Under the pieces are notes generated by a model. That model made no database searches and was not told where the DNA came from. It saw only the letters and a program-made list of their open reading frames with translations. DNA of 64,000 bases from Dechloromonas denitrificans. GTDB taxonomy: Bacteria; Pseudomonadota; Gammaproteobacteria; Burkholderiales; Rhodocyclaceae. The position numbers were made by a program, and so were the translations under genes. The stretch is taken from assembly GCF_001551835.1 (NCBI RefSeq), contig NZ_LODL01000035.1:546093-610092 (forward strand), given 5' to 3'. This document shows positions 38,121-46,503 of the stretch, piece by piece (position 1 is the stretch's first letter; each line of letters begins with the position of its first letter).

Positions 38121-39401
38121 TCAGCCGAACAAGGCGGCCGTCGCCACCGGATTGGACGCGAAGTAAAAGTGGACATAGGAAGCGGTCAGTCGTTCCCGGC
38201 GGTAGATCGCCTCGCCCTCCCGGCCATCCTGGGTCTGGGCGCGCACGATCGGCGTCAGCGGCGTTTCGCTCTTCGAGTAATGGAAGGTGTGGCCCTGCAG
38301 GCGGCCTTCCGGCAGGTCGGCGAATTGCATGCCGAGTGCGGCCAGGCGTTTCTGCATCACCGAAATGCCGGGCAGCAGGCCGGCGAAGGCATGGGTGTCG
38401 CCGGCCTTGTCGGTGACCTGCTCGAACAGGCTCATCATGCCGCCGCATTCGGCGAGCAAGGGCTTGCCGGCGGCGACGTGGGCGCGCAGCTCGTTCCACA
38501 AAGGCTGGTTGGCCGACAGCGTCGGGGCATGCAGTTCCGGGTAGCCGCCGGGCAGCCAGACGGCATCGCAGGCCGGCAGCGGCTCGCCGGCGACCGGCGA
38601 GAAGTAGCGCAGTTCGGCGCCGAGGTCGGCCAGGGTTTCCAGATTGGCCGGGTAGATGAAGCCGTAGGCGGCATCACGGGCGATGGCGATGCGCTTGCCG
38701 GCGAGCAGCGGCGCGATGTCTGGTGGTGGAACATCGTCGAAAACGACCGGTGGCGGCAGGTCGACCGTGGCACTGGCGGCCAAGGCATCGGCCAGACGGT
38801 CGAGGCGCTCCTCGATATCGTCGATTTCGGCCGCCTGCAGCAGGCCGAGGTGGCGTTCCGGCAGCACCGCGTCCGGGTTGCGCGGTAGCGCGCCGAACCA
38901 GCCCATGCCGGCCGGCAGGCTGTCGCGGGCCATCGCGGCGTGGCGTTCGCTGCCAACCCGGTTGGCCAGCACGCCGGCAAAGGGCAGGCCGGGCCGGTAG
39001 GTGGCGAGACCGTGGGCAACGGCACCGAAAGTCTGGGCCATGGCGCCGGCGTCGATCATCGCCATCACCGGGATGTTGAAGCGGCAGGCGATGTCGGCCG
39101 CCGACGGTGTGCCGTCGAACAGGCCCATGACGCCTTCGACCAGGATCAGGTCGGAATCCTGTGCCGCCCGGCTCAGCCGCCAGCGCGCATCTTCCTCGCC
39201 GCACATGCCGAGATCGAGGTTCTGGCACGGTCGACCGCTGGCCACGGCATGAATCTGTGGGTCGAGAAAGTCCGGGCCGCATTTGAAAACGGTGACGCGC
39301 CGGCCTTGCCGGGCATGCAGCCGGGCCAGCGCGGCGGTGACGGTGGTCTTGCCCTGGCCGGAGGACGGGGCGGCGATCAAGAGAGCGGGACAGGCGGTCA
39401 T
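38121..39401 (-). CDS. cobB: cobyrinate a,c-diamide synthase (CbiA/CobB)
   Basis: A 426-residue glutamine-dependent enzyme that amidates the a and c side chains of (hydrogeno)cobyrinic acid. The N-terminal P-loop is APSSGQGKTTVTAALARL, and the C-terminal class I glutamine amidotransferase domain has its nucleophile Cys in LLAECGGMMSL and its His near the C-terminus. ATG 39401 gives the family start (MTACPALLIAAPSSGQGKTT); the frame is open further upstream into the preceding gene. It is last in the riboswitch-controlled corrinoid operon. No other corrin-ring synthesis gene is in the window. Confidence 0.94.
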   Translation of the reverse strand: MTACPALLIAAPSSGQGKTTVTAALARLHARQGRRVTVFKCGPDFLDPQIHAVASGRPCQNLDLGMCGEEDARWRLSRAAQDSDLILVEGVMGLFDGTPSAADIACRFNIPVMAMIDAGAMAQTFGAVAHGLATYRPGLPFAGVLANRVGSERHAAMARDSLPAGMGWFGALPRNPDAVLPERHLGLLQAAEIDDIEERLDRLADALAASATVDLPPPVVFDDVPPPDIAPLLAGKRIAIARDAAYGFIYPANLETLADLGAELRYFSPVAGEPLPACDAVWLPGGYPELHAPTLSANQPLWNELRAHVAAGKPLLAECGGMMSLFEQVTDKAGDTHAFAGLLPGISVMQKRLAALGMQFADLPEGRLQGHTFHYSKSETPLTPIVRAQTQDGREGEAIYRRERLTASYVHFYFASNPVATAALFG

Positions 39402-39427: not shown

Positions 39428-41053
39428 TTATCGGGTCGGCTGGCTGAAGCCTTGCCGGCGATCCCAATCGACGTAGAACAGCCGCGACTGGCTGGTACTG
39501 AACGAGTACAGCCGTTCGCCGCCAGCCGCGACGACGCTTTCGCCGCGCCTGAAATCGAGCTCCGGCTCGCGCCCGGTGCGGTTGTTGACGATCAGCGGTA
39601 GGCCGGTTTCGGCACTGCGCCGTTCCCACAGATCGTCCGGCCCCATGCCGTCGACTGGCGGCCAGTTGGCCGGGGCGAGCAGTATGGCGGCGCCCTGCTC
39701 ACGGTAGCGGGCGGCTGGCTCCGGCTTGTAGGTGTCGGCACAGATCAGGACGCCGACGGGAATGCCGTCGACCATGAAGGGCGCGCCGCCGGTGCCGGGC
39801 GTGGACCAGCTTTCGGCGCCGCCATGCACGCGCTGCTTGCGGTAGGCGCCCTGAATGACGCCGTTGCGGTCGATCACCGCGACGCTATTGTGGAATTTGC
39901 CGGTCTTTCCATCGCGTTCGGCGAAACCGACGAACAGCGCCACCCGGTTGTCGCGGGCGATGGCCGCCAGCGTGCTGATCCAGGTATCGGGAAAGGGCGC
40001 GATCCAGTCGGTGCCGATCCGGCTGGCGAAGTTGTAGCCGGTCTCGGCCAGTTCGGGCGTCATCACCCAGTCGGCGCCCTGGCCGACCGCCTCCTGGATG
40101 CCGGCCTCGATCCGGGCGCGGTTGCCGGCGACGTCGCCGGGTACGGCATCGAGATGGAGCAGGGCGAGACGCAGCGCATCCGGCGCCTTGGCCGGGGCGA
40201 CTGGCGCGGCGGTAAAACGCTTCGTTCCGGGCAGGAAAAAGCCGTTCTGCTTGCCGAGCGCTTCGAGCACCGCTTCGTAGCTGGCCTTGCCGATCAGTTC
40301 GCCGATCCGGCTGTGGCCGCCGGTATAGCTGGCCTGCGGGCCCTGCGTGCCGGAGACGACGATGATGCTGTCGGTGCCGGTCCCCGTCGCCTGCACGGTT
40401 TTGGTGTAGGTGCTCGGCACGTTGAGATCCTGCAGCGCTGCCGTCTTGCCTTCGGTGACGGTGATCAGGGCGCGGGCCAGCGCCGCGTCGGTCAGCCGGA
40501 TATTGGTCAGCAGCATGATGTTGATGGTGCCGGCCGGCGTCTGGCCTTCGATATAGGTCCCGGCATCGACGCCAGTGCGGATGGCATTGGTCTTGGCGCC
40601 GGCCGTCGCCAGCACGGTGACGGTCAGCGGGCCGTAGTGCTTGGTGATCACCGCCAGATTGTCCATGTCGGCGGCGGTGGCCATCCGGGCGACGGCCGGC
40701 TTGTCCAGCTGCAACTGGCCGGCCATCTTGGCGTGCACATGCTCGGCATAGGCCTTGCCACCCCGGCCATCCTGGCCCATGAAGCGGTGGCCGAGCGTTT
40801 TCCAGAGCACCGGGTGGGCGGCATGGTTGAGTGCTGCCCGGGCATCGAGCAGGCCGTCGGAGGTCGACAAGGTGCGGCGCGCCTCGGGAAAGCGGACGAG
40901 CAACACTTTCTCCCAAAGCCCGTCGCGCTCGCTGCGCACGATCTGCGCCTCGGCCCGGATATTGGCCGGGAGATTGCTCAGAACATCGCTTTCCGCCGCC
41001 CAGGCGGCCGCGGAAAAGAACAGCAGGCAGGCCAGCCGGCCAAGCGCATTCAT
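39428..41053 (-). CDS. exported CbiZ::nitrilase-superfamily fusion protein
   Basis: A 541-residue protein with a Sec signal peptide (MNALGRLACLLFFSAAAWA, predicted cut before AES). Residues ~55-266 match CbiZ adenosylcobinamide amidohydrolase: TLSTSDGLLDARAALNHA, LAVITKHYGPLTVTVLATAG, GTINIMLLTNIRLTDAALAR and YTGGHSRIGELIGKASYE. Residues ~293-525 are a nitrilase-superfamily carbon-nitrogen hydrolase with its triad intact: Glu334 (MTPELAETGY), Lys406 (AYRKQRVHGG) and Cys438 (GVLICADTYKPE). CbiZ cleaves the aminopropanol arm of corrinoids to give cobyric acid. The signal peptide would place this activity in the periplasm, beside BtuB and BtuF. The nitrilase substrate is unknown. It starts 10 bp after cobO. 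Confidence 0.9.
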   Translation of the reverse strand: MNALGRLACLLFFSAAAWAAESDVLSNLPANIRAEAQIVRSERDGLWEKVLLVRFPEARRTLSTSDGLLDARAALNHAAHPVLWKTLGHRFMGQDGRGGKAYAEHVHAKMAGQLQLDKPAVARMATAADMDNLAVITKHYGPLTVTVLATAGAKTNAIRTGVDAGTYIEGQTPAGTINIMLLTNIRLTDAALARALITVTEGKTAALQDLNVPSTYTKTVQATGTGTDSIIVVSGTQGPQASYTGGHSRIGELIGKASYEAVLEALGKQNGFFLPGTKRFTAAPVAPAKAPDALRLALLHLDAVPGDVAGNRARIEAGIQEAVGQGADWVMTPELAETGYNFASRIGTDWIAPFPDTWISTLAAIARDNRVALFVGFAERDGKTGKFHNSVAVIDRNGVIQGAYRKQRVHGGAESWSTPGTGGAPFMVDGIPVGVLICADTYKPEPAARYREQGAAILLAPANWPPVDGMGPDDLWERRSAETGLPLIVNNRTGREPELDFRRGESVVAAGGERLYSFSTSQSRLFYVDWDRRQGFSQPTR

Positions 41054-41063
41054 CGGCGCGGAC

Positions 41064-41672
41064 TCAGAATTCGAGGCCGGGCATGGCCTTGATGCCGCTC
41101 TGGAAGGCGTGCTTCTCCATGCCGATGTCGCTGACCGTGTCGGCCGCCTCGCGCAGGGCTTGCGGCGCGGCGCGACCGGTGATGATGACGTGCTGCATGT
41201 GCGGGCGGGTGAGCAGCTTGGCGATGACTTCGTCGAGTTCCAGCCAGCCGTATTTGAAGGCGTAGGTCATTTCGTCGAGGACGACGAGGCCGATCTCCGG
41301 GTTGCTCAGGTGGCCGCAGGCGACTTCCCAGGCGGCCTGGGCGGCGCGGGCGTCGCGCTCCTTGTCCTGGGTTTCCCAGGTGAAGCCTTCGCCACCGACA
41401 TGCCAGGCGACATTCGGCTGCTGGCGGAAGAAGGCCTCCTCGCCGGTATCCGAGCGGCCCTTGACGAATTGCACGACGCCGACCTTCAGGCCGTGGCCGA
41501 GGGCACGGGCGACGACGCCGAAGGCAGCCGAGGACTTGCCCTTGCCGTTGCCGGTGTTGATGACCAGCACGCCGCGTTCTTCCTGGGCGGCGGCGATCTT
41601 GCCGTCGACCACTTCCTTCTTGCGCTGCATGCGGTTGCTGTGGCGGGATTCCTGGTCCAGGGGTTCGGTCAT
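41064..41672 (-). CDS. cobO: cob(I)yrinic acid a,c-diamide adenosyltransferase
   Basis: A 202-residue ATP:corrinoid adenosyltransferase of the CobA/CobO/BtuR family, which attaches the 5'-deoxyadenosyl ligand to cobalt. The P-loop is VLVINTGNGKGKSSAAFG, with family motifs VGVVQFVKG and LVVLDEMTYAFKYGWLE. ATG 41672 overlaps the btuF stop by four bases. In this operon it would adenosylate corrinoids delivered by BtuFCD. Confidence 0.95.
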   Translation of the reverse strand: MTEPLDQESRHSNRMQRKKEVVDGKIAAAQEERGVLVINTGNGKGKSSAAFGVVARALGHGLKVGVVQFVKGRSDTGEEAFFRQQPNVAWHVGGEGFTWETQDKERDARAAQAAWEVACGHLSNPEIGLVVLDEMTYAFKYGWLELDEVIAKLLTRPHMQHVIITGRAAPQALREAADTVSDIGMEKHAFQSGIKAMPGLEF

Positions 41673-42466
41673 GGCTTCAGCGCCTCCTTCAGTTCGTCCA
41701 GGCCTTCGAGCAGGCGGGGACCGGGGTAGAAAAAATTGTCGCCGGAGAGCATGACCAGCGGCACCGGCAGGCTGCCGAGGCTGGCGTCGCACTGGCTGGC
41801 TGCGGTCGACATGAAATTGATCACCAAATCCGGCCGGGTGGCCGCGACCAGGGCCGGAATGCCGTCGATGGCCTGGCCTTCGCGCAGATGGTGGATACCT
41901 TCGGCCGGGTCGGCCAGGGTCAGGCCGGCCTGCTCGGCGAGATCGCCGAGCAGCGTGTTGTGGCCGTAGGAATAGGGCTTCGCGGCGCAGGCCGAGAGCA
42001 GCAGCACGCGGCGCTTGCGGCCGGGAAATTCGCTCAGCCGGCGATGGGCTTCGCGGCTGAATTCGGCGGCCCGGGCGGCGCCGTTCGGCGCGCCGCTGGC
42101 TTCGGCGAGCGCCACCAGCATCTGTTCGGTCTCGGCCAGCGAGCGCGAACCGCCAACGCGCAGCGTACGGGTGCCGGCCGGCGTGACCTGCTGCAGCGTT
42201 TGCTCGCTGGTCAGCGTCGAGGTGACGATCAGGTCGGGGCGTAGCGCGGCGATGGCGGCGGCATCCGGATCGCTGACCCCGCCGGTGCGTGGCAGATCCT
42301 TCTTGTCGTAGCGCGAAACGCCGACGATGCACTCGCCACGGCCGAGCCAGTCGAGGGCGATGCTCAGATAGGGCGACTGGCTGACGATGCGCGGACAGGC
42401 GGCTTGGGCGTTCAGCGCGCTCAGGCCAAGCAGGAAACAACACAGGAAACGAAACAGGGGACGCAT
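41669..42466 (-). CDS. btuF: cobalamin-binding periplasmic protein BtuF
   Basis: A 265-residue class III binding protein for corrinoids: a signal peptide (MRPLFRFLCCFLLGLSALNAQA), then ACPRIVSQSPYLSIALDWLG and GVSRYDKKDLPRTGGVSDPD typical of BtuF/FhuD-type proteins. ATG 42466 is preferred over an in-frame start at 42523. The gene lies between btuD and cobO and overlaps the latter. It hands corrinoids from the periplasm to BtuCD. Confidence 0.92.
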   Translation of the reverse strand: MRPLFRFLCCFLLGLSALNAQAACPRIVSQSPYLSIALDWLGRGECIVGVSRYDKKDLPRTGGVSDPDAAAIAALRPDLIVTSTLTSEQTLQQVTPAGTRTLRVGGSRSLAETEQMLVALAEASGAPNGAARAAEFSREAHRRLSEFPGRKRRVLLLSACAAKPYSYGHNTLLGDLAEQAGLTLADPAEGIHHLREGQAIDGIPALVAATRPDLVINFMSTAASQCDASLGSLPVPLVMLSGDNFFYPGPRLLEGLDELKEALKP

Positions 42467-42494: not shown

Positions 42495-43271
42495 TCAGCG
42501 CGGGATGAAGCCGATCCGGCCATCGATCTCGACGGCTTGCAGCGGGTGCTGGTAAAGGGCCGACAGGTGTTCGGCGGTCAGCATCTGGCGGACCGGCCCG
42601 AGTTCGTGCCGGCCATCGCCGTGAATGAGCAGGGCGCGGTCGCAATAACGCCAGGCCAGCGCCGGTTCGTGCAGCACCATGATGACGCCGGCGCCGTTGT
42701 CGCGCGCGGCACCGGCAAACAGTTCGAGGACGGCGATCTGGTGATTGAGGTCGAGATGGGCGAGCGGCTCGTCGAGCAGGTAGAGCGGCGCCGCCTGGGT
42801 GAGCAGGGTGGCGATGGCCAGTCGCTGGCGTTCGCCGCCGGACAGGGTCTGCACGTCGCGCTGTTCCATCTCGGCCAAGCCGACGGCACGCAAGGCGGCG
42901 CGGGCGATATCGGCATCCTGGGCGCTTTCCCAGTCCCAGCGCCCGAGGTGCGGGTGGCGGCCGGTCAGCGTCGTTTCCAGTACCGTTGAGGCGAAGGCGT
43001 CGCCATGGCGCTGCTCCAGCCAGCCGCGGCGGAGCGCTGCCTGGCGCGGGCCGAGTTCGGCGTAGGAAGTGCCGCCGAGCAGGATTTCGCCGGTATCCGG
43101 GGGGCGCAGGCCGGCCAGCACCGAGAGCAGTGTCGACTTGCCGGCGCCGTTGCGACCGAGAATGGCCAGCCGTTCACCGGCCTGCAGCGTGAAGTTGAGG
43201 TTGGTGCACACCTGATGCTGGCCGACACTGACGCTCAGCGTCTGGGCTTCGATCAACGGGGCGGTGCTCAT
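42495..43271 (-). CDS. btuD: cobalamin ABC transporter ATPase BtuD
   Basis: A 258-residue ABC ATPase with Walker A (AILGRNGAGKSTLLSVL), signature (TLSGGERQRLAIATLL), Walker B (LYLLDEPLAHLDLNHQ) and the switch His in MVLHEPALAWRY. The ATG at 43271 overlaps the btuC stop (ATGA). It drives import through BtuC. The 28-bp spacer to btuF is the second-longest in the operon's permease part and holds the btuF ribosome-binding site. Confidence 0.94.
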   Translation of the reverse strand: MSTAPLIEAQTLSVSVGQHQVCTNLNFTLQAGERLAILGRNGAGKSTLLSVLAGLRPPDTGEILLGGTSYAELGPRQAALRRGWLEQRHGDAFASTVLETTLTGRHPHLGRWDWESAQDADIARAALRAVGLAEMEQRDVQTLSGGERQRLAIATLLTQAAPLYLLDEPLAHLDLNHQIAVLELFAGAARDNGAGVIMVLHEPALAWRYCDRALLIHGDGRHELGPVRQMLTAEHLSALYQHPLQAVEIDGRIGFIPR

Positions 43272-44245
43272 CGCTGATGCCTCGAGAGCAGGAAGAGGAA
43301 GACCGGCACACCGATCAGCGCGGTCAGCACGCCGACCGGCAGTTGCTGCGGCGCAATCAGCGTGCGGGCCAGGGTGTCGGCCAGCACCAGCAGCGAGCCA
43401 CCGGCCAGTACCGAGGCCGGCAGCAGCAGACGCTGGTCGTTGCCGGTGGCGAGGCGGACCAGATGCGGCACGACCAGACCGACGAAGCCGATCGAGCCAG
43501 CGGTGGTCACCGAGGCGGCGGTGGCCAGCGAGGCAAGCAGATAAATCGCATAGCGCAGCCGGTTGACCGCAACCCCCAGTGCCTGCGCCTGCATCAGGCC
43601 GCGCGCCAGCAAATTCAGTTCGCGGGCGAACGGCATGGCCAGCAGCAGGGCGACACCGAGCGCCAGCAGCGGCGGCCACCACTGGCCGCTCTGGCCGAGG
43701 TCGCCCATCAGCCAGAAGAGCATGCCGCGCAGCTTGTGTTCGGGGGCGATGGCCAGCATCAGCGCGACCAGCGCGCCGCAGCCGGCGGCAACGATGACGC
43801 CGGTCAGCAGCAGCCGCGTCTGCGTCCAGCTGCCGTCGCCGTGGGCCAGCCCGAAGACAATGAACATCGCACTCAGGGCGCCGAGGAAAGCCAGCCCATC
43901 GATGCCGAGCACCGGCAGGCCGAGCAGGATGGCGAACATCGCCCCGACCCCGGCGCCGCCGGAAATACCCAGCACGTAAGGGTCGGCCAGCGGATTGCGC
44001 AACAGTACCTGCATCAGCGCGCCGGCCAGGGCGAGCAGGCCGCCGCAGGCAAAGCCGGCCAGCGCCCGCGGCAGGCGCAGTTCGAGCACGACGTCGATAC
44101 CCGCTACCTCGCGCCCGGCCAGGGCGGCCAGCACATCCGGCAAGGGAATGCGTAGACTGCCCACCGTCAACGCCAGCCCGATACTGAGCCCGGCGAGCAG
44201 GCCGAGGCTGACGAGGATCAGAAGAGCGCGGTGACGAGTGGGCAC
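43268..44245 (-). CDS. btuC: cobalamin ABC transporter permease BtuC
   Basis: A 325-residue FecCD/BtuC-type permease with about ten helices. Family segments are VLELRLPRALAGFACGGLLA, NPLADPYVLGISGGAGVGAM and GSIGFVGLVVPHLVRLATGN. It begins 6 bp after btuB and overlaps btuD. It forms the inner-membrane channel for corrinoids. Confidence 0.95.
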   Translation of the reverse strand: MPTRHRALLILVSLGLLAGLSIGLALTVGSLRIPLPDVLAALAGREVAGIDVVLELRLPRALAGFACGGLLALAGALMQVLLRNPLADPYVLGISGGAGVGAMFAILLGLPVLGIDGLAFLGALSAMFIVFGLAHGDGSWTQTRLLLTGVIVAAGCGALVALMLAIAPEHKLRGMLFWLMGDLGQSGQWWPPLLALGVALLLAMPFARELNLLARGLMQAQALGVAVNRLRYAIYLLASLATAASVTTAGSIGFVGLVVPHLVRLATGNDQRLLLPASVLAGGSLLVLADTLARTLIAPQQLPVGVLTALIGVPVFLFLLSRHQR

Positions 44246-44251
44246 AGGAGC

Positions 44252-46114
44252 TTACTTGGGACTGTAGCGGACACCGACAAAGGCATTAACGCCCGGTGTC
44301 GCGAAATCGGCAGCGAGTTCGTAATCGCGATCGAAGACGTTGTTGACCCGGGCGAAGACAGACCAGTCGCCGGTAAAGCGGTAGGCCCCGTACAGGTTGG
44401 TGAGCGCGTAGCCGCTCAGCTTGCGGGTATTGGTCGCGTTGTCGAAACGACGGTCGCTGGCGACCATCTCGGCGCGCCATTCCCAGGGGCCGATCTGCTG
44501 GCCGATGCTGGCGGCGCCGAAATTGGTGGCGCGGCGTGCCAACTGGCGTCCGCTATCGGTGTCGCGCGGGTCGAGGTAGTTGTAGCTGGCCTGCAGGTTG
44601 AAGTTGCTGATCTGGCCGTCGTAGGCCAGGGTCGTGCCTTCCAGCCTGGCCTTGCCGACATTGACCGGTGTGTAGGCGAATGATCCCGGTGCCGTCTCGT
44701 TCCACGAGATGAGGTTGTCGACCTGGTTCAGATACCAGGTCAGGGAAACGTGATGCAGGCCCCGCTCGTAGTGAATCGCCGCCTCGCGGTTGCGCGAGGA
44801 TTCGGGGAGCAGGTTCGGATTGCCGTAGCTGCCGAAGGTCAGCGGGTAGTAGAGATCGTTGAACGATGGTGCCTTGAAGGCCGTGCCGTAGCTGACGTTG
44901 GCCCGCCAGTTGGGATCGATGCGATAGCCGTAGGCGATCGAACCGGTCGTCTTGTCGCCGAACTGCGAGTTGTTGTCAGTGCGCAGGTTGGCCTGCAGGC
45001 GGTGCGCCAGGTAGCTGCCGCTCCAGCCGGCCAGCACCGAGTTGATGCTGCGTGAATCGACGCTGTAGTTGCCGGTGCCGCTGACCGTCTGGTCGAGTCG
45101 TTCGACCGCCAGCAGGAACTTGCCGACGCCGGTCTTGATGTCGTTTTGCCAGGAATACAGGTCCTGGTCGGTGCGGAACAGGCTGCTTTGGACCCCGTCG
45201 GTGGTGTTCATCGAATCGTCGGTGCTGTGGCCGATGCGCAGGGTGCTCGTCCAGTTGCTGGTAAAGGCATCCTTCAGGTAGGTACTGAAGTTGGAGACGG
45301 CGAGCTGGTTGCGGTAATCCATGGCGGCGGTCGTCTTCGAGAAACCACCGTCGTACTTGTTCTCGCCGTCGCTGTAGAGGAAGCTGGCGCCGGCTTCGTG
45401 GCCGGGTGCGAAGGCATAGCCGAGGCTGCCGCTGACGCTGTTGTTGTCGAAACCGTCGCGGTCGGGGTTATAGGCGCTGTTTTTCGGATTCTTGATGCTG
45501 TTGAAGCCTTCGGTCCGGTAGGTCGAGGCATCGAGCGCATAGCGCCAGCCGTTCTGGCTGCCCGAGAAACCGGCGCTGGCGGCGCCCGAGTGGTAGGTGC
45601 CGCCGCCGACTTCGCCATGGGCTTGGAATGGGCCATGGCCCTGGCGGGTGAAGATCTGGATGACGCCGCCGATGGCGTCGCTGCCATAGAGTGAGGAGGC
45701 CGGTCCGCGCAGGATTTCGATGCGCTCGATCTGGCTGGCCGGAAGGCGCGACCAGGAGGACATCTGGCCCAGGGTGGCGGAGCCGGTCCGCATGCCGTCG
45801 ATCAGGACCAGGGTGTGGCCGCTGTTGGTGCCGCGCATGTAGACGCTGGCATTGGCGCCATTGCTGCCGTTCGTGCTGATCTCGATGCCGGGCTGGCGAG
45901 CGAGGATGTCGATCAGCGTCGACTGGCTGGCCTGCTCCAGTTCTTCACGATCAATGACGGAAACGTCGGAGAGCAGTTCCGAGGTGCGCGTTGCCTGGCG
46001 CGTCGCGGTGACCATGATGGGGTCGAGGCTGGCCACCTGCAGCGTTTCGGCCTGGGCCTGGGCGGTGAAAATGAAGGGCAGCAGCGCTGCCAGCGGTTTC
46101 AAGCGTGGATTCAT
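44252..46114 (-). CDS. btuB: TonB-dependent cobalamin receptor BtuB
   Basis: A 620-residue outer-membrane receptor: a signal peptide (MNPRLKPLAALLPFIFTAQAQA), a TonB box near mature residue 10 (LDPIMVTATR), a plug domain (GIEISTNGSNGANASVYMRG and IERIEILRGPASSLYGSDAI) and a 22-strand barrel. The last residues are VGVRYSPK, without the usual terminal Phe. ATG 46114 follows the riboswitch at appropriate distance. It captures corrinoids outside the cell with energy from TonB and is the first gene of the riboswitch operon. Confidence 0.95.
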   Translation of the reverse strand: MNPRLKPLAALLPFIFTAQAQAETLQVASLDPIMVTATRQATRTSELLSDVSVIDREELEQASQSTLIDILARQPGIEISTNGSNGANASVYMRGTNSGHTLVLIDGMRTGSATLGQMSSWSRLPASQIERIEILRGPASSLYGSDAIGGVIQIFTRQGHGPFQAHGEVGGGTYHSGAASAGFSGSQNGWRYALDASTYRTEGFNSIKNPKNSAYNPDRDGFDNNSVSGSLGYAFAPGHEAGASFLYSDGENKYDGGFSKTTAAMDYRNQLAVSNFSTYLKDAFTSNWTSTLRIGHSTDDSMNTTDGVQSSLFRTDQDLYSWQNDIKTGVGKFLLAVERLDQTVSGTGNYSVDSRSINSVLAGWSGSYLAHRLQANLRTDNNSQFGDKTTGSIAYGYRIDPNWRANVSYGTAFKAPSFNDLYYPLTFGSYGNPNLLPESSRNREAAIHYERGLHHVSLTWYLNQVDNLISWNETAPGSFAYTPVNVGKARLEGTTLAYDGQISNFNLQASYNYLDPRDTDSGRQLARRATNFGAASIGQQIGPWEWRAEMVASDRRFDNATNTRKLSGYALTNLYGAYRFTGDWSVFARVNNVFDRDYELAADFATPGVNAFVGVRYSPK

Positions 46115-46231
46115 GAATCTTCCTTTCCCGGCGGGCGTCCCCGCATGCCGGAACAGCATTGAGAAGGAAGCGCAGGGGGAACGGCGGCTCGCAGGAACCG
46201 GCGCCACACCCCCGTGGCACTTCCGTGATTT

Positions 46232-46410
46232 GTCTCAGGCCGGTATCCGGGCTCGCAAGTCTTGACGTACCGCCTTCCCAGGTTTGAACCCAGTGGCCTT
46301 GTGGTACGCCCGCACTTGTTACCGTTGCGGGGGCAGCAGCGGATTGGTCTCGTGGAGACGCACCGCTTTCCCGTTTAACTGCGCTTGGAAGAACCTTGCG
46401 CAGCACCTGA
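46232..46410 (-). promoter_or_regulatory. cobalamin (AdoCbl) riboswitch
   Basis: On the minus strand this leader carries the conserved cobalamin-riboswitch landmarks in order: AACGGGAA, the core CTGCCCCCGCAACGGTAA, GCCACTGGG, CTGGGAAGGCGG, and the B12-box-like GAGCCCGGATACCGGCC ahead of the 3' closing strand. It lies 118 bp upstream of the btuB ATG. High coenzyme B12 should therefore repress the whole btuB-to-cobB operon. The exact ends are estimates from the outer helix. The remaining bases 46115-46231 contain the btuB leader, and 46411-46503 show no feature I recognise. Confidence 0.93.
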
Positions 46411-46503
46411 CACGGCGCGCATTCTACATGGCAAGTTGTTGCGCCGCATCAGAAAAGTACTGTTAAATTCCGATAAAGCACTTTGAGAATAAAGGCTTAG
46501 TCC

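Follow-up and report, generated by a model that had tools for sequence, protein, structure and literature searches.

A conserved gene joining CbiZ and nitrilase domains in a cobalamin-riboswitch operon of Dechloromonas denitrificans, with a predicted role in periplasmic corrinoid remodelling

We analyzed a 64,000-nucleotide stretch of the Dechloromonas denitrificans genome (contig NZ_LODL01000035.1; hereafter, the window) and found in it a gene that joins a predicted signal peptide, a CbiZ domain and a nitrilase-superfamily domain. The fusion is real and conserved. Its sequence and gene context suggest, as the likeliest reading, that the protein hydrolyses corrinoid amides in the periplasm and carries an additional amidase. 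We think it probable, if far from certain, that the CbiZ half performs a first step of corrinoid remodelling in the periplasm and that the nitrilase half, as another amidase, attacks the same corrinoid. The initial annotation knew of no experimental description of this architecture, and our literature search found none: CbiZ and a nitrilase do not appear together in any paper of the searchable literature.

The fusion gene and its operon

The fusion gene (41053..39428, minus strand) starts with ATG and encodes 541 aa in a single frame with zero internal stops. The predicted signal peptide spans residues 1-19 (40997..41053), based on a composition heuristic and on conservation of the pattern in homologues. 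It is followed by the CbiZ domain at residues 54-262 (40268..40894; PF01955, 167.4 bits, cut-off 27) and the nitrilase-superfamily domain at residues 295-509 (39527..40171; PF00795, 88.8 bits, cut-off 23.2), all on the minus strand. The open reading frame and the Pfam matches thus confirm the uninterrupted three-part gene of the initial annotation, which had placed the CbiZ domain at residues ~55-266. The catalytic residues Glu334, Lys406 and Cys438 named there are all present, as is the second glutamate, Glu414.

We found this nitrilase tetrad to be invariant in 9 aligned fusions as well as in 11 more members of the genus. In the CbiZ domain, the invariant positions are Gly175-Thr176, the TGTGTD motif (to Asp228) and His247. 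The family-wide CbiZ motifs GTIN, TGTGTD and G-x-H are kept in an alignment of 26 exported and cytosolic members, and are invariant within the genus. Compared with the isolate D. hortensis, dN/dS was 0.05-0.07 in both domains, indicating purifying selection. AlphaFold2 modelled the mature chain with a pLDDT of 88.7 and a pTM of 0.77, and the CbiZ domain with values of 91.5 and 0.90, respectively. An assembly or annotation artefact was ruled out by the purifying selection on both domains and by the recurrence of the fusion at ~15 loci, including that of D. hortensis.

The fusion is the sixth gene (39428..41053) of an operon with the order riboswitch-btuB-btuC-btuD-btuF-cobO-fusion-cobB, in which genes are spaced by -4 to +28 nt and all lie on the minus strand. 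The cobalamin riboswitch (46221..46425; Rfam RF00174, 116.5 bits) is located just upstream of btuB, so that the placement of the fusion inside a B12-riboswitch operon, also part of the initial annotation, holds. The gene btuB (44252..46114) encodes a TonB-dependent vitamin B12 receptor with Pfam Plug and beta-barrel domains (TIGR01779, 456 bits, below the equivalog cut-off of 599.7). It is followed by btuC, a FecCD-type permease (43268..44245; PF01032, with NF007081 BtuC as the best NCBIfam match), btuD, an ABC ATPase (42495..43271; PF00005), and btuF, a periplasmic binding protein with a signal-like N-terminus (41669..42466; PF01497, 29.4 bits, cut-off 27.5). The corrinoid adenosyltransferase gene cobO/cobA (41064..41672; TIGR00708, 209.6 bits, cut-off 167.75) precedes the fusion, and cobB, encoding cobyrinate a,c-diamide synthase, is the last gene of the operon (38121..39401; NF002204, 445.9 bits, cut-off 254). 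A 6S RNA gene (RF00013; 47110-47289, plus strand) adjoins the operon, as it does in L002, L003, L005 and L012 (loci are numbered with the prefix L), and is ordinary.

The same genome carries cobQ, cobD, cbiB, bluB, cobU, cobT and cobS, all above the NCBIfam cut-offs, which make up the route from cobyric acid to cobalamin, and it also carries metH. Since the rebuilding genes are complete, cobyric acid formed in the periplasm would have a use. The genome also holds an anaerobic corrin pathway (a cbi cluster and cbiM), so the organism is not dependent on salvage.

These genes suggest the following mechanism. When B12 is low, the riboswitch would leave the operon on, and the fusion protein would be secreted to the periplasm via Sec. 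There, the CbiZ half would act on cobinamide, and on cobamides carrying a foreign lower ligand, that BtuB has brought in; hydrolysis of their f-side-chain amide would yield cobyric acid. The trimmed corrinoid would be imported by BtuF and BtuCD and adenosylated by CobO, after which CbiB, CobU, CobT, CobS and BluB would turn it into cobalamin whose lower ligand, dimethylbenzimidazole, is made by the cell itself. Also in the periplasm, the nitrilase half would act on that corrinoid as a second amidase. We infer export itself, CbiZ activity on non-adenosylated corrinoids, cobyric acid import by BtuFCD and the substrate of the nitrilase.

Export and corrinoid context of a separate CbiZ clade

We examined the evidence for export. 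The N-terminus, MNALGRLACLLFFSAAAWA followed by AES after the predicted cleavage site, shows a charged n-region, a hydrophobic core and an AxA-type site by the composition heuristic. This secretion-type pattern, rather than the sequence, is conserved at the N-terminus of all fusions. Secretion-type N-termini were also found in the stand-alone exported relatives with a readable start and are missing from cytosolic CbiZ proteins. The described CbiZ salvage enzyme is cytosolic and without a signal peptide, and the fusion departs from that description by the heuristic and by its position in a separate clade.

We constructed a maximum-likelihood tree from 26 exported rows (two of which are the same gene) and 17 cytosolic rows. 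The exported CbiZ proteins formed one clade apart from the 17 cytosolic rows with support of 100/100, and the fusions were monophyletic with support of 95/90. The branch parting exported from cytosolic CbiZ measures 2.76 changes per site, a length at which long-branch effects and a shift in activity are both possible. To our knowledge, the characterised CbiZ enzymes all come from the cytosolic side of the family.

Members of the exported clade stand alone or are fused to a nitrilase, to DUF4019 (L014:6460-7701) or to a BtuF-like protein, and this clade is new here. The BtuF-like fusion is a 690-aa exported protein (L077:7993-10065, minus strand) that combines PF01497 with the CbiZ domain PF01955, and it is the most direct sign that a CbiZ works in the periplasm. 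Its operon, which is under a cobalamin riboswitch, also contains genes for a TonB receptor, a MotA/ExbB-type protein, a CobN-like protein, a CbiK-like protein, a second BtuF and ExbD/TonB-type proteins.

The fusion could instead carry out ordinary cytosolic CbiZ remodelling, its hydrophobic N-terminus not being used for export, as might be expected given that all characterised CbiZ enzymes known to us, among them the R. sphaeroides enzyme, work on corrinoids inside the cell. We regard this as very improbable, because the secretion-type N-terminus survives strong divergence and is missing in cytosolic CbiZ, the separate nitrilase at L025 has its own signal peptide and the CbiZ at L077 is fused to a BtuF-like domain.

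In a scan of named genomes, ~15 fusion loci were identified in Rhodocyclales-type genomes, including that of D. hortensis (L002), whose fusion shares 96% identity. A further 8 loci with exported CbiZ but without the nitrilase domain were found in Zoogloeaceae, Accumulibacter, Geobacteraceae, Syntrophaceae and an unclassified deltaproteobacterium. Of the 76 species genomes of the genus, 37 contain CbiZ, in almost every case within a frame as long as that of the fusion, so that about half of the genus lacks it. The order sample contained CbiZ in 1 of 300 genomes and the class sample in 10 of 369. The trait is patchy and accessory.

Corrinoid context recurs across these loci. Of the 19 loci with exported CbiZ that we scanned for a cobalamin riboswitch, 16 have one (the window, L002, L003, L005, L009, L011, L012, L015, L016, L017, L018, L019, L020, L023, L024 and L077), and none was found by Rfam at L014, L022 and L035. 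The riboswitch at L023 lies between cbiZ and btuB and would therefore not control cbiZ. The btuBCDF and cobO genes are recurrent neighbours of exported CbiZ. In L009:5683-11716, L011:4813-11683 and L020:5723-11881, the fusion is located downstream of a cobalamin riboswitch and nrdA; in L009, where this was tested, the gene for the small subunit of ribonucleotide reductase directly follows the fusion. The ribonucleotide reductase genes at these loci are of class Ia, the kind that replaces the B12-dependent enzyme when B12 is short. With this setting and the riboswitch, the fusion would be expected when B12 is scarce, even away from transport genes. Homologues lying consistently outside corrinoid loci, which the initial annotation had set against its own reading, were not what we found: L022 is the only fusion locus with no corrinoid neighbour or riboswitch in the stretch examined.

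Considering the signal pattern, the separate clade, the BtuF-like::CbiZ fusion, the riboswitches and the uptake genes together, export and a corrinoid role for the fusion are well supported by sequence comparison. Of the earlier proposal that CbiZ acts between BtuB and BtuF, these two parts stand, and the periplasmic CbiZ step is a prediction.

We also considered whether the CbiZ domain might mainly bind periplasmic corrinoids and hand them over, as a substitute or helper for BtuF, with hydrolysis secondary or lost. No btuF like that of the window was found between btuD and cobO in the fusion operons L003, L004, L005, L006, L007, L008, L010, L012 and L013, and these operons keep the fusion; the fusion of CbiZ to a BtuF-like protein at L077 also fits a binding role. 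Even so, BtuF is encoded in the window operon, sister genomes may carry BtuF-like genes elsewhere, and the invariance of the CbiZ motifs and the nitrilase tetrad is a better fit to catalysis. We consider a mainly binding role quite unlikely.

The CbiZ-linked nitrilase and the CobN-like neighbours

The nitrilase domain belongs to a narrow subfamily, new here, that occurs only beside CbiZ in the genomes scanned. Three arrangements were identified. In Rhodocyclales, the nitrilase is fused to exported CbiZ. In G143 (L025/L035), a genome from another family of the class, a separate 298-aa nitrilase with its own signal peptide and 41% identity is located directly after exported CbiZ. In G538, which lies outside the class, two loci (L075 and L076) encode a nitrilase without a signal peptide, with 45-46% identity, clustered with cytosolic CbiZ. 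The G538 clusters (L075:9107-15161 and L076:9157-14897) comprise the nitrilase, a cobalamin riboswitch, a siderophore-type TonB receptor, DUF7676 (tested in one locus), a 184-189-aa protein and cytosolic CbiZ, and in both the nitrilase gene is upstream of the riboswitch. Because the G538 matches came via the nitrilase domain alone, their linkage to CbiZ is not a product of the search. When 369 genomes of the class were searched with a subfamily profile, the scores were 449 bits in the D. denitrificans genome, 378 bits in G143, which is partly by construction since G143 was included in the profile, and 100 bits for the next match; the absence of further members is not by construction. Wherever CbiZ is exported the nitrilase is too, and where CbiZ is cytosolic so is the nitrilase, which speaks for a substrate within one shared pathway.

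The best Foldseek matches of the nitrilase domain were N-carbamoylputrescine amidase and other amidases, with E-values of about 1e-18, and identity to the solved structures matched was at most ~28%. The subfamily has an ICAD motif at the catalytic cysteine. All scores against NCBIfam equivalogs were far below cut-off, and the domain was assigned to no characterised branch. Such relatives leave room for a nitrilase whose substrate is a non-corrinoid or is produced elsewhere; its union with CbiZ would then reflect only that both are needed at B12 scarcity. In keeping with this, the nearest solved relatives are small-amide and carbamoyl amidases, and we identified no feature specific to corrinoid binding in the domain. 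The occurrence of the subfamily only beside CbiZ, in three forms whose compartment tracks that of CbiZ, makes this improbable in our judgement.

A nitrilase acting on the same corrinoid as CbiZ, which we prefer, was anticipated in the initial annotation as a two-step breakdown. The tie between nitrilase and CbiZ is upheld by the fused, the exported separate and the cytosolic separate forms. The released amide suggested as a substrate is disfavoured. CbiZ cleavage yields cobyric acid, a carboxylate, and a free amine, so that the leaving arm offers no amide for the nitrilase. The adjoining cobB gene could point to a nitrilase that strips off a/c amides for CobB to put back; this idea is weakened, as the anaerobic corrin pathway needs CobB anyway. 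The nitrilase would most likely cleave amides spared by CbiZ, either the f-amide in other types of cobamide or an amide on a ring side chain; some other conjugate is a further candidate. A cytosolic side-chain deamidase, as G538 would then have, would damage the cofactor, which slightly favours the f-amide.

In some relatives, the operon contains additional genes. The D. hortensis locus has a set between the fusion and cobB (L002:10623-15710) that consists, by Pfam, of a CobN-like protein with a signal peptide and a C-terminal membrane anchor (PF02514), a MotA/TolQ/ExbB protein (PF01618) and DUF2149, and the set is also present in L005 and L007. Similar sets were found beside stand-alone exported CbiZ in L014, L015, L016, L024, L035 and L077, where the genes were labelled by similarity to the L002 proteins, a labelling that in some loci covers just the CobN-like and MotA-type proteins. 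The window genome yielded zero PF02514 (CobN) matches, and its operon is otherwise nearly identical to that of D. hortensis.

These sets raise another possibility, namely that exported CbiZ, the nitrilase and, in relatives, the CobN-like de-chelatase with the MotA/ExbB-type and DUF2149 proteins dismantle corrinoids for cobalt or the corrin ring. Exported CobN-like, MotA/ExbB and DUF2149 genes adjoin exported CbiZ in nine loci, and in Bacteroidota the CobN homologue HmuS, which has inner-membrane partners, takes the iron out of heme (PMC12583661). Against dismantling, the window genome is without CobN, the pathway for rebuilding is complete in the same genome, and many sister genomes keep the fusion with no CobN alongside, from which it follows that the fusion works without a de-chelatase. 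We consider dismantling unlikely as the role of the fusion, compared with remodelling.

We further compared the CbiZ fold with known structures. No solved structure matching CbiZ by sequence was found. Foldseek searches with the AlphaFold2 model of the CbiZ domain matched the self-cleaving amidases NylC, ThnT, BapA and DmpA with E-values down to 3.6e-7 and a probability of 1.00, at TM-scores of only 0.31-0.52. An hhalign comparison with DmpA placed GTIN on the GSII nucleophile motif in a non-significant alignment (probability 1.1%, E 0.05). Descent of CbiZ from a DmpA-like amidase may be taken from these models as a lead only, and no paper naming CbiZ together with DmpA was found in the searchable literature. 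If it is true, Thr176 would be the nucleophile, and cleavage between Gly175 and Thr176 might give an N-terminal chain and a nitrilase-bearing C-terminal chain.

On a wider and more tentative reading, which we hold to be possible but doubtful, these loci would encode a periplasmic corrinoid-processing system that trims or dismantles foreign corrinoids. At its core would stand exported CbiZ, either by itself or with a nitrilase, a BtuF-like or a DUF4019 partner on the same chain, together with TonB receptors, a dedicated nitrilase and, in many lineages, a proton-driven CobN-like de-chelatase, and the CbiZ half might be a self-cleaving enzyme of the DmpA/NylC type with Thr176 as the nucleophile.

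Comparison with known corrinoid systems

Cobamide remodelling decides which B12 relatives a cell can use, and in the accounts that we found it happens within the cell, either following import or coupled to it. In the papers found, CbiZ is a salvage enzyme that acts after or coupled to uptake. An exported CbiZ or periplasmic amide cleavage is undescribed in the searchable literature, and an earlier mention in the main CbiZ papers is possible. With an exported first step, cobamides that are of no use to the cell or are poorly imported would reach the inner-membrane transporter already converted to one common precursor. Such a step would possibly also deny cobamides to neighbours, and the cleaved ligands would be left in the periplasmic or outside pool. 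The CbiZ-linked nitrilase subfamily represents a new and directly testable enzyme in B12 metabolism. The authors of the HmuS study state that most of the CobN superfamily is unassigned (PMC12583661), and the recurring neighbourhood of the CobN-like de-chelatase provides a functional lead for it.

The closest described system is that of CbiZ in R. sphaeroides and methanogens (PF01955). The R. sphaeroides enzyme, which initiates remodelling, cuts pseudo-B12 and leaves B12 intact (PMC7733943). The fusion shares with these proteins the family, the core motifs, the context of riboswitch and corrinoid transport and the rebuilding pathway downstream, whereas it differs in being predicted to be exported, in belonging to a separate clade, in an extra N-terminal segment and in its nitrilase partner. 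CbiS (CbiZ/alpha-ribazole phosphatase, NF038002) likewise combines CbiZ with a second hydrolase, but its partner is a phosphatase, and the fusion scores 66.6 bits against NF038002, far under the cut-off of 250. CbiR of Akkermansia also starts cobamide remodelling, by cutting the nucleotide loop (PMC7733943); its fold is unrelated, and it cuts the phosphoribosyl bond rather than an amide.

Functional parallels within the nitrilase superfamily are vanin and biotinidase, amidases that are secreted and act on vitamin conjugates. With nitrilase amidases such as N-carbamoylputrescine amidase and the PH0642 type, the nitrilase half has the fold and the Glu-Lys-Glu-Cys residues in common, and it differs from them as a CbiZ-tied subfamily with an ICAD motif. 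The loci of the relatives resemble the Hmu system of Bacteroidota (PMC12583661) in having an exported CobN-like protein, inner-membrane MotA/ExbB-type and DUF2149 proteins and a TonB receptor. They differ from it in their cobalamin riboswitches and CbiZ, and in the window genome the set is missing.
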